A stretch of DNA of 64,000 bases. Origin: Streptomyces misionensis (GTDB lineage: Bacteria; Actinomycetota; Actinomycetes; Streptomycetales; Streptomycetaceae). The number at the start of each line of letters is the position of its first letter. The stretch's first letter is position 1. Location of the stretch: assembly GCF_900104815.1 (NCBI RefSeq), contig NZ_FNTD01000004.1:3860501-3924500 (forward strand). Direction: 5' to 3'. The notes under the pieces were generated by a model. It worked only from the letters and a program-made list of their open reading frames with translations. It was not told where the DNA came from and did not search any database. Made by a program: the position numbers and the translations under genes. Shown here piece after piece: positions 53,475 to 58,297 of the stretch.

Positions 53475-53552
53475 GCGGGCTCCCTTCAAGACGGTTGTAG
53501 GGAATCTGTCCACATTGCCCGGAAAGCGAACCTTGGAAACCGGACCGGCCCG

Positions 53553-54503
53553 TCAGCGGCCCCCGACGGTCTCCAGGAACAGCCGCGCGTACCGTTTTGC
53601 GTGCACCGCCAACGCGACGTCGACCAGGGCCTGTTCGCGCCGTCCGTGATGGGCCTCGGACTCGCCGGGGCGCGTCCGGCGGTCCACGATCGTCTGGCCG
53701 CGCGCGGGGCCGGGGGCGAGGCAGACCTCGACGGGCAGCGGCCGGGTGGTCAGCCCCGCCGGATCGGCGACCGCGCACACCGCCCCCGCGTCCCCGAGGC
53801 AGCCCGTCTCCTCGGGCCCGTCCGGGCGGTGCCCGAGGAGCCGGCCGGCCAGCCGGGCCCCGGGCTCGGGGCTCGCCCGCAGCCGCCGCGCCCGCGCGCC
53901 GGTCACCACCACCTCCCGGAACACGTCCAGGCCGTACATCGTGATCGGCACCCCGGCGGTGAGCACGACGGCCGCCGCCTCCGGGTCGTGCCAGACGTTG
54001 AACTCGGCGACGGCCGTGGCGTTCCCGGCGCCGACCGCGCCGCCCATGAAGACGATCCGCTCGATGTTGCGGGTCACCTCCGGATGGGTGCGCAGCAGCA
54101 GCGCGATGTTGGTCAGGGGCGCGGTGGGGACCAGGGTGACCGGCCGGGGCGAGGCCAGGATCTCCCGGCGCAGCAGGGTCACCGCGTCCACGTCGGCGGG
54201 GGCGCGGACCGGCTCCGGCAGCCCCAGGTCCCCCATGCCGTCGCCGCCGTGCCAGCCCGAGGTCCGGGCCGGTTCGAGCAGCGGCCGCTCGGCGCCCCGG
54301 CCCACCGGTATCCGCGGCGCCCCGGCCTGCTCCAGCACGGTCAGGGTGTTGCGGACCACCCGGTCCACGTCCGTGTTCCCGGCGACACAGGTCACCGCGC
54401 GCAGTTCGAGGCCGGGGTGGCGCACGGCGAACAGCAGCGCGAGGGCGTCGTCGACACCCGTGTCGCAGTCGATGATCACGGGGACGGGCTGCGGACCGGA
54501 CAC
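53553..54503 (-). CDS. Ribonucleoside hydrolase-like (IU-NH family)
   Basis: 316 residues. N-terminal metal-binding motif IIDCDTGVDDALAL (Asp 12, 14, 18 and 19), followed by VAGNTDVDRVVRNTL, TLVPTAPLTNIALLL and EFNVWHDPEAAAVVL, as in purine/pyrimidine nucleoside hydrolases. It should cleave the N-glycosidic bond of a nucleoside for salvage. The intergenic gap to the GH13 gene is 78 bp, and to the ThrRS gene 49 bp, so cotranscription with the latter is possible. Confidence 0.92.
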   Translation of the reverse strand: MSGPQPVPVIIDCDTGVDDALALLFAVRHPGLELRAVTCVAGNTDVDRVVRNTLTVLEQAGAPRIPVGRGAERPLLEPARTSGWHGGDGMGDLGLPEPVRAPADVDAVTLLRREILASPRPVTLVPTAPLTNIALLLRTHPEVTRNIERIVFMGGAVGAGNATAVAEFNVWHDPEAAAVVLTAGVPITMYGLDVFREVVVTGARARRLRASPEPGARLAGRLLGHRPDGPEETGCLGDAGAVCAVADPAGLTTRPLPVEVCLAPGPARGQTIVDRRTRPGESEAHHGRREQALVDVALAVHAKRYARLFLETVGGR

Positions 54504-54552
54504 TGCGGACTCCTTCGTCTGACGGGACCCGAACGCTAGTTCAGCCCTCCCG

Positions 54553-55779
54553 TCACTCCCACAGCCCGGTCCCGCGCGCCGCCACCCGCGCGGCGATCCG
54601 GGACAGCAGCTCCGCCACCGGCAGCTCCCCGGGCCGCCGCCCGTCCCGCAGCCGTACCGCGGCCCGGTCCGCCGCGGCCTCGCGGGCGCCGATCACCGCC
54701 ACGTACGGCACCAGACGCGCGGCACGGACGCGGGCGCCCAGGGAGCCCTCGCCGGGCCCGGCGAACTCCGCGCGCAACCCCCGTGCCCGCGCCTCGGCCA
54801 CGACGGCCGCCGCCCGCTCCTCCTGCTCGGCGCCGACCGGCAGCACCGCCAGCTGGACCGGCGCCAGCCAGGCCGGGAAGGCGCCACCGTGCACCTCGAC
54901 CAAGTGGGCCACGGCACGCTCCACGCTGCCGATGACGCTGCGGTGCACCATCACCGGGCGATGCCGGGCGCCGTCGGCGCCGGTGTAGCGCAGGCCGAAG
55001 CGGGCGGGCTGGTGGAAGTCGATCTGCACGGTGGACAGGGTGGACTCGCGCCCGGCCGGGTCCGCGATCTGCACGTCGATCTTGGGTCCGTAGAAGGCGG
55101 CCTCGCCCGCCGCCTCCTCGTACGCCACGCCGGCGCGGTCCAGCACCTCCCGCAGCAGCGCGGTGGCCCGGCGCCACAGCGCGGGGTCGGCCACGTACTT
55201 GCCGCCCGCGCCGGGCAGCGAGAGCCGGTGGCGCACGGCACGGATGCCGAGGTCGGCGTAGGCGCGGGCGATCAGCTCCAGGGCGGCGCGGGACTCGGCC
55301 ACCGCCTGGTCCAGGGTGCAGAAGACATGGGCGTCGTTGAGCCGGATCGCCCGCACCCGGGTCAGCCCGCCCAGCACCCCGGACGGCTCGGCGCGGTACA
55401 TGGTGCCCAACTCGGCGATACGCAGGGGCAGTTCGCGGTAACTGCGGGCGCGGGAACGGTAGATCAGGGCGTGGTGGGGACAGAGGCTGGGCCGCAGCAC
55501 GACCTCCTCGGCGCCCATCCGCATGGGCGGGTACATGTCGTCGCGGTAGTGGTCCCAGTGGCCGGAGATCTCGTACAGCTCCCGCTTGCCGAGCGCGGGC
55601 GAGTACACGTGCCGGTACCCGGCCCGGACCTCGGCCTCGCGGATGTACTCCTCCAGGGTGTGCCGGACCACCGCGCCGTCCGGCAGCCAGTACGGCAGCC
55701 CGGCGCCCATCAGCGGATCGGTGCCGAACAGGCCGAGATCGCGGCCGATGCGGCGGTGGTCGGGAAGCTGGTCGTGCAC
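54553..55779 (-). CDS. Short auxiliary threonyl-tRNA synthetase (catalytic and anticodon domains only)
   Basis: 408 residues from GTG 55779 with GAGGAGAC upstream; full-length ThrRS is around 650. It starts at the class II catalytic core: GAGLPYWLPDGAVVR, motif 2 region EPSGVLGGLTRVRAI, and motif 3 HRSVIGSVERAVAHL. The zinc/threonine ligands are kept: C100 (RPSLCPHH), H151 (NDAHVFC) and H279. The C-terminal anticodon domain is present (VQLAVLPVG); the N-terminal TGS/editing region is missing, so misacylated Ser-tRNA would not be cleared here. Such extra enzymes can act when the main enzyme is inhibited. A complete attenuator lies upstream. Confidence 0.93.
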   Translation of the reverse strand: MHDQLPDHRRIGRDLGLFGTDPLMGAGLPYWLPDGAVVRHTLEEYIREAEVRAGYRHVYSPALGKRELYEISGHWDHYRDDMYPPMRMGAEEVVLRPSLCPHHALIYRSRARSYRELPLRIAELGTMYRAEPSGVLGGLTRVRAIRLNDAHVFCTLDQAVAESRAALELIARAYADLGIRAVRHRLSLPGAGGKYVADPALWRRATALLREVLDRAGVAYEEAAGEAAFYGPKIDVQIADPAGRESTLSTVQIDFHQPARFGLRYTGADGARHRPVMVHRSVIGSVERAVAHLVEVHGGAFPAWLAPVQLAVLPVGAEQEERAAAVVAEARARGLRAEFAGPGEGSLGARVRAARLVPYVAVIGAREAAADRAAVRLRDGRRPGELPVAELLSRIAARVAARGTGLWE

Positions 55780-55828
55780 GGTGTCTCCTCGATGGCTCGA
55801 CGGAGGCGGACGACCCCGTGACACGCCA

Positions 55829-55858
55829 GAAGCCCCGGGGCGTTCACCCCGGGGCTTC
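55829..55858 (-). terminator. Attenuator terminator before the auxiliary ThrRS gene
   Basis: A perfect 12-bp stem, GAAGCCCCGGGG (55829-55840) with its complement (55847-55858), loop CGTTCA, on the transcript that runs from the Thr-rich leader ORF (55947-55873) to the ThrRS start at 55779. It lies 14 bases after the leader stop and 49 bases before the GTG. It cannot belong to a plus-strand gene because none ends upstream. Confidence 0.82.
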
Positions 55859-55872
55859 GGACAGGTCGGATG

Positions 55873-55947
55873 TCAGCGCGCCGGGACGGTCTCCGGCGTC
55901 GTCGTGCCGTTCGGGCACGGGCTCGGGCACTGCGGGGCGCGCTGCAT
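55873..55947 (-). CDS. Threonine-rich leader peptide (attenuator) of the auxiliary ThrRS gene
   Basis: A 24-codon ORF, MQRAPQ...NGTTTPETVPAR, with three consecutive Thr codons (ACG ACG ACG, 55905-55897) plus one more ACC Thr codon three codons later. A TAGCCT -10 box (55960-55955) ends 7 nt before the ATG, so the transcript probably starts at the ATG. CGTGCC/GGCACG (about 55917-55901) forms a hairpin over the Thr codons. The strong terminator follows 14 bases after the stop. Low charged tRNA-Thr would stall ribosomes on the Thr run and allow readthrough. This is the classic layout of ribosome-mediated attenuation. Confidence 0.75.
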   Translation of the reverse strand: MQRAPQCPSPCPNGTTTPETVPAR

Positions 55948-56112
55948 GGCCGGGAGGCTAGCAACGGCCGGGCGGAACGGGCGACGGGTTTTCCCCGCCC
56001 GCCCGCTCCCCCGCCCGCCCTCCCGGCCCTCACCCGTCCGGGCCCGCGCGCTGGTGGGGCGCCCGGGACGGTGGTGCCGTGAGAGGAGGCACCAGCACCG
56101 GGAGGCACCGCG

Positions 56113-56898
56113 ATGTACGACGGCATACGACCGCACGGACGCCTGCTGACCTGCCTCATAGGCGCCGGCCTGCTCGGCGTCGGCGGCTGCGCGGCCCTGA
56201 CCCTGAAGCAGCCGGCGACCGCGCCGCAGCCCCTCCCGACGATCGACCGCCCCTCCCGCGGCGAGCAGGCCCCGGCCCGGCCCGACGGCTCCACGCTCAC
56301 CGACGGCCAGGCGCAGTCCGCGCTGCTCACCCAGACCGACCTCGGCGCCCCCTGGGCCGCGACCCGCGGCGCGGCGACCTGGCGGGACGGGCTGCTCAAG
56401 GCGAACACCTCGGCCGGCGACTGCCACAAACTCCTCGACGCCCTCTACAGCGACCGGTTGCTCGGCGCCCCGGCCCGCGCCGCCGTCGGCCTGGACGACG
56501 CCGACACCGACGCCCAGCTGCGCTACCAGATCGGCGCCCGCCGCCCGTCCGACGTGGACGCCGCGCTGGCCTGGCTGCGCACGATGCCGGCCAAGTGCGC
56601 CCGGTTCACGGCCACCACCCAGCAGGACACCCAGGAGGACGTCCGGGTCGCCGAACTCCCCCTGCCCGAGGTCGGCGACGCCCGCCAGGGCCTGCACATC
56701 ACCCTCGACGCCACCACCTCCGACGACCAGGAGAGCCGCCTCACCCTCGACGTCGCCGCCGTCCGCGTGGGCGACGACGCCTTCGCCCTGACCAACGGCG
56801 GGCTCGCCGACGTCCCCAACGACGCCACCCAGGCGGCCGTCCAGGTGGGGGCGCTGCGGCTCGCGCAGGTGCGCAAGGAGGGCCGGGCGGAGGTGTAG
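56113..56898 (+). CDS. Lipoprotein of unknown function
   Basis: 261 residues. A type II signal with lipobox LGVGGC (lipidated Cys near 27) after CLIGAGLLGVGG. A Thr/Pro/Ala-rich linker is followed by an alpha/beta domain with LLTQTDLGAPWAATRG, GDCHKLLDALYS and CARFTATTQQDTQ, where the two Cys residues may form a disulfide. Resembles PknH/LpqN-like sensor domains of actinobacteria in layout (about 190 residues with a disulfide), but this is a loose comparison. GGAGG precedes the ATG. It is convergent with the XRE-TPR gene, 7 bp apart. Confidence 0.85.
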   Translation: MYDGIRPHGRLLTCLIGAGLLGVGGCAALTLKQPATAPQPLPTIDRPSRGEQAPARPDGSTLTDGQAQSALLTQTDLGAPWAATRGAATWRDGLLKANTSAGDCHKLLDALYSDRLLGAPARAAVGLDDADTDAQLRYQIGARRPSDVDAALAWLRTMPAKCARFTATTQQDTQEDVRVAELPLPEVGDARQGLHITLDATTSDDQESRLTLDVAAVRVGDDAFALTNGGLADVPNDATQAAVQVGALRLAQVRKEGRAEV

Positions 56899-56905
56899 GC
56901 CGGGA

Positions 56906-58297
56906 TCAGAGCGGCGGCTGCGCCGGTGCGGGGCCCAGCGTCGTGGTGCCCGGGGCGGCGCGGTGGCCGAGTCCGGTGCGGTAGGCGTCCAGGGCGGCCT
57001 CGACCCGTCCGGTACGGCGCAGCAGATCGCCGAGGAGGCGGCACAGGTCGGCCAGGTCGCCGGCGGCGCCCGCGCGTTCCAGCAGGCTGAGGGCGCGCAC
57101 GTAGTGCTCCTCGGCGGACTCGGTGTCACGGCCGTCCTCGGCGATGATGCCGAGCAGCCGGTGCGCGGCGGCGGCGTGCACGGCGCCGCGCTCGGAGGAG
57201 AAGTCGCCCAGCACTCCCTCCAGCAGCTCCGCGGCCTCCGCGGACCGGCCGCGCCGGTGCAGCACATCGGCGAGTTCCACCGCGGCCTGGCTGCGGTAGA
57301 GGGCGGCCCGGGTCTGCGACAGCATGTCCAGCGCCTGCCGCAGCTCCGTCTCCGCGGCCTCCAGGTGGTTGTTCTGCGCGTGGACGTAGCCGCGCATCCA
57401 GTGGCAGTGCGCCAGTTCGGTGCGCAGGCTGAGCTGGCGGTACAACTCGGCCGCCTTGGCGAGGGAGGCGTCGGCCTCGGCGGCGCGGCCCTCGGCGAGC
57501 AGGGTGCGGGCCACCGAGCGGTGCATCCGGGCGATCAGCGCAGGGTCGCCGGAGCGCGGGGCGAGCGCGAGGGCGAACTCGGCGGCCTGGGCGGCACGGG
57601 CGTGCGCGCCCATGTCCAGGTAGGGGCCGATGGCGCTGGCGTACAGGAGCAGCAGCGCGTCCGGGTCGTGCAGGCCGCCCCGGTTGAGTTCGTCGAGGGT
57701 GGTCTCCAGCAGGTAGACGGCGTACCGGAGTTCACCGGCCAGGTAGTGGGCGACCGCGCGGCCGCGCACGGCGGGGGCGCGGGCCGCCGGGGAGGCGTCG
57801 GCGAGCTGTTCCTCGGCCCGCTCGAAGTGGGCCCGGGCATCCGTCAACGCGCCCGTCTCCAGCGCGCATTCGCCAAGTCCCAGCAGCGCGGCGGCCTGTT
57901 CGGGGACGAGTGCGTGCGCCTCCGCCTCGGCCAGCAGGTCCGCGTAGCGCGCCGCCGCCTCCTCGGCCCGGCCGTCGGCCAGCAGCCGCTGCGCCTCGGT
58001 CAGCCGCAGCCGCAGCTCCGTGGCGAGGTGGGCGGGGCGGCCCAGCGCCAGTTCCTCGAAGCTCACGCCGAGCCGGTCCGCGATGTGCCGCAGCGCCTCG
58101 TCGGAGGCGCGCACCCGGCCCGCCTCCAGGGTGGAGATGTACGCCGGGGTGTAGGCCGGCTCCGCCAGTTGCCGCTGGGTGAGCCCGCGCTGGGCGCGCA
58201 ACCGCTGCACCCGTCGTCCCACCGTTCCCGGATCGTCCCTTTCCCGCACCACCGGCACCCCCAACTCCCCCTGTCCGCCTTGCTGTTCGGCTCCCAC
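56906..58297 (-). CDS. XRE-type HTH regulator with C-terminal TPR domain
   Basis: 463 residues from GTG 58297 (AGAGG just upstream). A Cro/CI-type HTH (about 27-80: VQRLRAQRGLTQRQLAEPAYTPAYISTLE) followed by about nine tetratricopeptide repeats to the end (for example LLGLGECALETGALTDARAHFERAE). The same domain order is found in RRNPP-family peptide-sensing regulators such as PlcR, where a small secreted peptide binds the TPRs. Here a divergent gene 64 bp away encodes a tiny secreted peptide. Repeated TTAAAC boxes lie in between. Confidence 0.92.
   Translation of the reverse strand: MGAEQQGGQGELGVPVVRERDDPGTVGRRVQRLRAQRGLTQRQLAEPAYTPAYISTLEAGRVRASDEALRHIADRLGVSFEELALGRPAHLATELRLRLTEAQRLLADGRAEEAAARYADLLAEAEAHALVPEQAAALLGLGECALETGALTDARAHFERAEEQLADASPAARAPAVRGRAVAHYLAGELRYAVYLLETTLDELNRGGLHDPDALLLLYASAIGPYLDMGAHARAAQAAEFALALAPRSGDPALIARMHRSVARTLLAEGRAAEADASLAKAAELYRQLSLRTELAHCHWMRGYVHAQNNHLEAAETELRQALDMLSQTRAALYRSQAAVELADVLHRRGRSAEAAELLEGVLGDFSSERGAVHAAAAHRLLGIIAEDGRDTESAEEHYVRALSLLERAGAAGDLADLCRLLGDLLRRTGRVEAALDAYRTGLGHRAAPGTTTLGPAPAQPPL

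Follow-up and report, generated by a model that had tools for sequence, protein, structure and literature searches.

A predicted threonine-codon attenuator ahead of a second threonyl-tRNA synthetase in Streptomyces, with opposite threonine codons in leader and gene

How might a streptomycete that carries a second, shortened threonyl-tRNA synthetase (ThrRS) bring it into use when the supply of threonyl-tRNA falls? This question is raised by a locus on the minus strand of a 64,000-nucleotide stretch of the Streptomyces misionensis genome (contig NZ_FNTD01000004.1; hereafter the window), where the gene for such an enzyme, which we call ThrRS2, follows a short open reading frame (ORF) with three consecutive threonine codons. 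A preliminary description, made from the sequence, had proposed a Thr-specific, leaderless attenuator ahead of an auxiliary ThrRS. We consider it probable that ThrRS2 is a conditional, editing-less backup enzyme under the control of a ribosome-mediated transcription attenuator that senses Thr-tRNA. The leader, its promoter box, the hairpins, their conservation and a division of synonymous codons between leader and gene can be read directly from the DNA.

The -10 box 7 nt before the leader ATG, the 24-codon ORF with three ACG codons and a further Thr codon three codons on, the perfect 12-bp hairpin 14 nt past the leader stop, and the ribosome-binding site and GTG of a 408-residue ThrRS, all named in the preliminary description, were found in place (Table 1). 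The leader is a short ORF in which codons for the downstream enzyme's own amino acid follow one another, as in ribosome-mediated attenuators, and the ORF and its leaderless start suggest that it is translated. To survey its distribution we used the best 80 of 551 relatives from a search of genome contigs as an orthologue set; these loci come from named records of Streptomyces, one Kitasatospora and one 'Actinobacteria bacterium', and the closest named relative among the matches listed was S. misionensis (L003, 94% identity). A related leader lies 5' of ThrRS2 in 80/80 of these loci, including three odd ones (frameshifted in L047, reading TTAP in L053 and with two Thr in L070). The ThrRS2 protein was found in 58 of 121 Streptomyces whole genomes, the source genome counted, and in 49 of 119 genomes drawn from the order (both at E 1e-120 or better); at E 1e-110 it was found in 29 of 197 genomes of the class, 19 of 150 in the order of G410 and 43 of 120 in the family of G282.

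A second set of 83 upstream stretches contained two that were too short (L124 and L160, at contig ends) and two from second copies (L118 and L119); a leader with a Thr run was present in 78 of the 79 usable ones. In L084 (genome G041, gene L169) the leader and promoter are lost and the terminator-like hairpin is kept; the upstream DNA there resembles, by eye, the coding sequence of another gene. A further 49 loci yielded 48 registered leaders; the remaining locus, L277, was passed over because its -10 departs from TANNNT, yet it carries the leader MRNAFAPTTTPDHSGLARPS. The leader pattern applied to the 164 upstream regions left nine of them unregistered: L047 and L101 are frameshifted, L053 reads TTAP, L084 has lost its leader, L165 has a divergent leader, L118 is a second copy without a leader, L119 is a degenerate second copy, and L124 and L160 are the contig ends. 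L015, which has a normal -10 and leader, was misregistered by the script. Some genomes are represented twice: G343, G361, G312, G265 and G410 each contribute to two of the upstream sets, and four of these five likewise to two sets of gene bodies. The pooled leaders number 203, of which 193 are distinct, under ten family labels (f1, f3, f19, f20, f21, f39, f45, f46, f52 and f55).

Thr codons 1, 2 and 3 are ACG in 181, 191 and 191 of the 193 distinct leaders, respectively. Past TTTP the peptide differs in f39, f45 and f52, and the Thr run is kept, together with the protector hairpin that overlaps its third codon, in leaders whose remaining peptide is different (GVPGAPH, GGSTRRSSA, GGPSRRAVM or DHSGLARPS). 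Across families, Thr run and hairpins are kept and the rest of the peptide is variable, the pattern on which the preliminary description had set its proposal; as the Thr run and the RNA pairing outlast divergence of the peptide, this supports ribosome-mediated attenuation. In L047, L101 and L304 small deletions have shifted the leader out of frame, and the Thr codons and most of the pairing sequence are retained. An alternative use of the same peptide would be nascent-peptide arrest, with TTTP[ED]xVPAR stalling the ribosome through the exit tunnel. The C-terminal PExVPAR is indeed almost invariant in most loci, but codons are fixed beyond what the residues demand (three ACG, CCG, and GTC CCG GCG CGC), three families diverge past TTTP, and the frameshifted leaders keep most nucleotides while losing the peptide, so that we regard arrest as very improbable.

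The gene makes the opposite choice of Thr codon. Over the 80 orthologues, the 806 Thr codons of ThrRS2 comprise 797 ACC, 6 ACT, 3 ACG and no ACA, in comparison to 2071 ACG among 6159 Thr codons (33.6%) in flanking predicted genes, and Thr makes up 2.5% of its residues in comparison to 6.7% in the flanks. In the window, all 11 Thr codons of ThrRS2 are ACC and none is ACG, while 31 other predicted genes use ACG for 252 of 894. Background genes here are open frames chosen by a rule of GC content by codon position, without annotation. Beyond the orthologue set, ACG accounts for 2/114 Thr codons in 16 leader-bearing loci of other families, 1/8 in a divergent Streptomyces (G010) and 4/387 in the 49 further loci (four genomes are common to this set and the 16 loci); the housekeeping ThrRS uses it for 9/28. 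We also examined second copies: a leaderless one with an N-terminal extension has ACG at 2/21 with 5.5% Thr (flank 23% ACG) and a degenerate one has ACG at 1/12 (flank 19%), counts too low to establish that the purge is missing.

Such a purge could instead stem from codon bias linked to expression level, or from ThrRS2 preferring certain tRNAs, and not from protection against starvation. Codons that end in C are preferred by highly expressed genes of GC-rich actinobacteria, as this explanation expects; against it, the Pro, Ala, Val and Gly boxes stay near flank values, so that among five four-fold boxes Thr alone departs strongly, only 2 of 241 other predicted genes of the source genome with at least 10 Thr codons lack both ACG and ACA, and leuS has a like split for Leu (below). 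We find this explanation doubtful. As little Thr as in ThrRS2 was seen in 2 of 226 predicted genes of at least 200 codons in the source genome.

The tRNA-Thr genes that we found have anticodons GGU (two), CGU (one) and UGU (one), with nine longer tRNA matches left outside this count; ACC is decoded by tRNA-Thr(GGU), and ACG by tRNA-Thr(CGU) and tRNA-Thr(UGU). Selective-charging theory, based on E. coli, holds in the part that concerns attenuators that their sensitivity depends on the synonymous codon used (PMC1183508). Viewed through this theory, the split would let the cell sense one isoacceptor and build with another, and since the gene is nearly without ACG, ThrRS2 could probably still be made during a shortage of Thr-tRNA.

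A comparable, partial split appears in leuS. The leuS leader pattern occurs in 39 of 41 Streptomyces genomes, part of these matches being other sequences, and in the 27 readable loci of 30 (L308-L337; L310, L311 and L323 were unreadable) the leader reads CTT CTG CTT in 25 and CTC CTG CTT in 2. In the first ~450 codons of these 27 leuS genes, CTC and CTT together make up 28 of 775 Leu codons, in comparison to 35.3% in 273 background genes, a set that includes ThrRS2; none of 216 background genes with at least 20 Leu has a CTC plus CTT share of 4% or less. Two leuS genes are richer in CTC (L327, 9/27; L333, 5/28), and because the leader contains CTG too, the Leu split is only partial. The leuA frame of the source genome (L338) has CTC at 2 of 31 Leu codons over the part read, with some upstream codons inside the frame. 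It is possible, from these codon counts, that a leader/gene split is general across attenuated genes, with leuA looking alike.

We next consider the RNA pairings that an attenuator of this kind would use. The hairpin that the preliminary description placed over the Thr codons, CGTGCC/GGCACG, does exist in the window, but its functional role did not hold up: CGTGCCCGAACGGCACG is confined to two of 164 upstream regions, those of the window and of S. misionensis, and we rejected it as a 'pause' element. The conserved 1:2 hairpin that overlaps the Thr codons is CGCCGG/CCGGCG, the protector; CGCCGG, beginning in the third Thr codon, is found in 189 of the 193 distinct leaders and CCGG[CT]G after it in 191. 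Its bases are changed but still paired in divergent lineages, as judged from six loci, with A-U in L266 where L262 has G-C, U-A in L274, one more A-U pair in L276, and in L277 a stem that is displaced and includes A-U. At the leader 5' end, a 5' arm can pair with a segment near the leader end (Table 1) with 8.96 pairs on average, in comparison to 6.72 after synonymous recoding of codons 2-4 (134 loci), and the pairing energy lies below the locus's own control mean in 113/134. The Arg codons there are CGC or CGT in 147/147, though 43% of the gene's Arg codons are CGG; the Ala codons are GCC or GCT in 142/147. An apparent compensatory change in this 5' stem (CAGUGC with GCACUG in L165/L273) was dropped, as eleven other f39 loci pair differently. 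A hairpin of at least 6 pairs lies 3' of the leader in 153/154 loci, in 83 distinct sequences with compensated outer pairs.

When the modelled ribosome masks the Thr run, at least 5 pairs form between the leader end and the terminator arm in 152 of 153 loci, in comparison to 30 of 153 without masking. Both the loop-proximal arm CCGGGG and its candidate partner GTCCCGG are conserved, and in L277 this antiterminator pair changes jointly by inspection (CUCCGG with CCGGAG), the automatic duplex having chosen another pairing. In a control that took in the window and roughly one locus in four (780 dinucleotide shuffles of the spacer), the antiterminator energy was better than that of the shuffles (-19.9 vs -15.3, standard deviation 3.0), which equalled it in 53 of 780.

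From these elements we propose the following sequence of events. A sigma-70-type promoter, to which a WblC/WhiB7-type site is added in many species, would start transcription at the leader ATG. With ample charged Thr-tRNA, a ribosome would reach the leader stop and occlude GTCCCGGCGCGC, the terminator hairpin would form, and transcription would stop. When the ACG-reading tRNA-Thr is uncharged, the ribosome would halt on ACG-ACG-ACG and occlude the 5' arm of the protector hairpin; the freed GTCCCGG could then capture the terminator 5' arm while the 3' arm is still to be transcribed, and RNA polymerase would continue into ThrRS2. With no ribosome on the leader, its 5' end would pair with its end; the terminator arm would stay available and the gene would remain silent. 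The mRNA for ThrRS2, Thr-poor and with nearly all of its Thr codons ACC and not ACG, would be proofed against the shortage. Stalling, kinetic antitermination, a selective loss of charging of the ACG reader and the return of charging through ThrRS2 are each what this arrangement of sequences would predict.

Several observations weigh against this proposal. There is no U-tract after the terminator-like hairpin, and full-length minimum-energy folds contain the terminator in 150-151 of 153 loci in all three ribosome states, the stalled state included (150/153); as these folds favour the terminator, antitermination would have to be kinetic. The number of antiterminator pairs does not discriminate, since 629 of 780 shuffled spacers also gave at least 5, and in the stop-codon state other leader sequence pairs with the arm in 125/153 folds. 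The third ACG lies inside the protector hairpin, so its identity is no pure sensing choice; ACC is the first Thr codon of the f39 leaders (12/12 before duplicate removal), which with the misregistered L015 make up the exceptions at codon 1, and ACC is the second in L276. Thr makes up 4.0% of the equivalent region in both the housekeeping and the E. coli enzyme, so low Thr relative to the flanks is in part a family trait. In L169, where the leader is gone, the gene is still purged (ACG 0/8). Finally, the authors who described the corresponding S. lividans leader, which has two adjacent Thr, called termination there unclear (PMC8079986).

The missing U-tract and the persistence of the hairpin in every modelled ribosome state would also suit a terminator that is not regulated, or an element acting in processing or stability, with the short ORF doing nothing but couple translation. 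Such an element does not call for CCGGGG and GTCCCGG both to be kept, for their joint change in L277 or for the changed pairs of the protector, and we hold it to be quite unlikely.

The promoter raises a further alternative. Of the 155 registered leaders, 154 have TANNNT 5-10 nt 5' of their start, in comparison to 0-4 when seven control offsets are taken. GAAAWY lies 30-36 nt 5' of the -10 at 76 of 154 loci, 73 times at 32-33 nt, and one other GAAAWY was seen within 60 nt of the -10. The published definition of a WblC promoter is GAAAWY 3 nt 5' of a -35 TKGMNN, then a 16-19 bp spacer and a -10 TANNNT, with transcripts starting mostly 7-8 bp past the -10 (PMC7157823). The window has GAAAAC, which fits, then 3 nt, TCGCCC (second base off), 18 nt and TAGCCT. 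The S. lividans orthologue has a leaderless transcript with a mapped 5' end (PMC8079986), and the WblC-activated regulon of S. coelicolor, in the part that lists it, names thrS2 (PMC7157823), presumably SCO3778, the counterpart of this gene.

ThrRS2 might therefore answer to a general sensor of translation inhibitors, in which any antibiotic that slows the leader ribosome, together with WblC, induces the gene and the Thr run confers little specificity. This would accord with the fixed position of GAAAWY, with the regulon entry, whose group is linked to tetracycline treatment, and with the upstream-ORF attenuator that wblC itself has (PMC7157823). It sits less well with a Thr run that is among the best-conserved features of the peptide, with a codon split in the gene that is specific to Thr, or with the 78 of 154 loci that lack the exact motif, among them L125-L131, which retain the leader. 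We think a general sensor unlikely, though not to be dismissed, and continue to prefer attenuation that senses Thr-tRNA.

We then asked what enzyme this switch would supply. ThrRS2 scores 433 bits with TIGR00418 (cutoff 384), and Pfam finds the class II core and the anticodon-binding domain only, with no N-terminal editing region, which agrees with the preliminary description of a ThrRS without TGS and editing regions. Its zinc ligands C100, H151 and H279, also named there, align with C334, H385 and H511 of E. coli ThrRS. The housekeeping ThrRS of the source genome (658 codons, start inferred) is 42% identical to ThrRS2 over the common part and additionally carries the editing-type domain PF07973 (tRNA_SAD). 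At the positions of E. coli M332, Q381 and L489, ThrRS2 has S, L and Q in 81/81 sequences (the window and 80 orthologues), in comparison to M, Q and L in the housekeeping enzyme; H309 and G463 are unchanged in the same set. In six loci of other families the L489 site is Q in four, K in one and L in one (L274). The S. aureus ThrRS, the best match among solved structures, also has L at the Q381 position, so that M332 and L489 are the two of these three positions that distinguish ThrRS2 from it.

The second ThrRS of S. parvulus, which we take to be BorO, and ObaO of the obafluorin producer invite comparison. In E. coli, mutations of L489 and H309 raise the inhibition constant (Ki) for borrelidin, and the producer ThrRS has T at the L489 site, according to the passages on this enzyme (PMC4389257). 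Inhibitor-pocket substitutions are thus common to the S. parvulus enzyme, ObaO and ThrRS2 (PMC4389257, PMC11252418), and the L489 residue is changed in both S. parvulus (T) and ThrRS2 (Q); ThrRS2 differs in retaining G463 and in having no N-terminal domains. An ObaO-type change of G463, a position tied to resistance against both obafluorin and borrelidin, was rejected for ThrRS2, which keeps this residue. The substitutions at borrelidin-contact positions offer a lead that ThrRS2 may be inhibitor-resistant. The preliminary description missed these substitutions, as it did the WblC-type motif and the ACG/ACC split. One further Streptomyces ThrRS (L170, G014:C316) is 56% identical to the ThrRS2 core, with an in-frame N-terminal extension that resembles the housekeeping linker by eye and without a leader; we rejected it as a full-length ThrRS with an editing domain, as Pfam gives core and anticodon domain only.

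The coordinates of the elements are collected in Table 1. A nucleoside hydrolase gene (PF01156; 53556-54503, minus strand) lies ~50 nt 3' of ThrRS2 on the same strand, and a divergent open frame (56113-56898, plus strand) without a Pfam or NCBIfam match lies 5' of the leader promoter. An Rfam scan of 53500-57500 (E up to 5) found no T-box specifier stem or antiterminator; a T-box or other known RNA family was set aside, as the scan gave a single unrelated match, below its gathering score.

Table 1. Elements of the ThrRS2 locus in the window (positions of the 64,000-nt stretch)
Element	Position	Strand	Remarks
WblC/WhiB7-type motif GAAAAC (GAAAWY)	55988..55993	-	3 nt 5' of -35-like TCGCCC (55984-55979)
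-10 box TAGCCT	55955..55960	-	predicted transcript start = A of leader ATG (leaderless)
Leader ORF MQRAPQCPSPCPNGTTTPETVPAR	55873..55947	-	24 codons + TGA; ATG at 55947
5' arm CAGCGCGCC	55936..55944	-	pairing partner GGCGCGCTG near leader end; no-ribosome state, predicted
CGTGCC/GGCACG hairpin	55919-55903	-	present in window
Regulatory run ACG ACG ACG (Thr-Thr-Thr)	55897..55905	-	ACC (Thr) three codons on
Protector (1:2) hairpin CGCCGG-AGACCGTC-CCGGCG	55879..55898	-	takes in part of third Thr codon
Antiterminator strand GTCCCGGCGCGCTGA, predicted	55873..55887	-	GTCCCGG can pair with CCGGGGT (terminator 5' arm + loop)
Terminator-like hairpin GAAGCCCCGGGG/TGAACG/CCCCGGGGCTTC	55829..55858	-	perfect 12 bp, 14 nt past leader stop, without U-tract
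ThrRS2, 408 aa	54553..55779	-	GTG start at 55779 behind GAGGAG; ThrRS core + anticodon-binding domain

How does this locus compare with attenuators already described? The auxiliary, indolmycin-resistant TrpRS of Streptomyces has an attenuator, and the E. coli thr operon attenuator has a terminator and an antiterminator. The former, together with Streptomyces trpS and leuS, resembles the present locus in its leader codons for the enzyme's own amino acid before a synthetase gene and in the logic of a backup enzyme; as Trp has a single codon, no codon split is possible there. The E. coli thr attenuator shares the leader run of Thr codons, but controls biosynthesis and uses eight ACC codons (PMC1183508), whereas here the leader has ACG and the gene ACC. 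Attenuators of trpS and leuS were predicted in Streptomyces by a 2005 survey, which in its passages on threonine operons reports no conserved RNA structures before them (PMC1262725).

The nearest precedent is thrL of S. lividans TK24 (SLIV_19412, before thrS SLIV_19410), annotated in 2021 with a mapped leaderless 5' end (PMC8079986). It has the same type of leader (MKRVRPFLETTPGFVPAR), likewise leaderless, with a single hairpin without a U-run before a threonine-tRNA ligase gene, and judged by the peptide rather than the DNA it is almost certainly the orthologous element. The passages on thrL mention no protector, no antiterminator and no WblC site, and describe neither its distribution nor a codon split (PMC8079986), and we found no description of the leader/gene codon split in the open-licence literature. 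The idea of a Thr-specific attenuator before an auxiliary ThrRS is supported by conservation, without the hairpin first named for it, and the leader itself is not new, having been published for one strain; the present analysis adds to it the attenuator's anatomy and distribution, a promoter motif and the division of codons between leader and gene.

Together, these data describe a natural case, in ten families, in which the sensor and the product of one switch appear driven to opposite synonymous codons. We suggest tentatively, with somewhat more doubt than confidence, that attenuated genes of actinobacteria divide a codon family, the leader taking the isoacceptor that would lose its charge first and the gene being purged of it, with ACG/ACC in ThrRS2 as the extreme and leuS as another instance, and that ThrRS2, with its WblC site and altered pocket, may be a widespread inducible backup against natural inhibitors such as borrelidin. 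Intrinsic resistance to ThrRS inhibitors would then have a concrete candidate source in this common and little-studied backup ThrRS.

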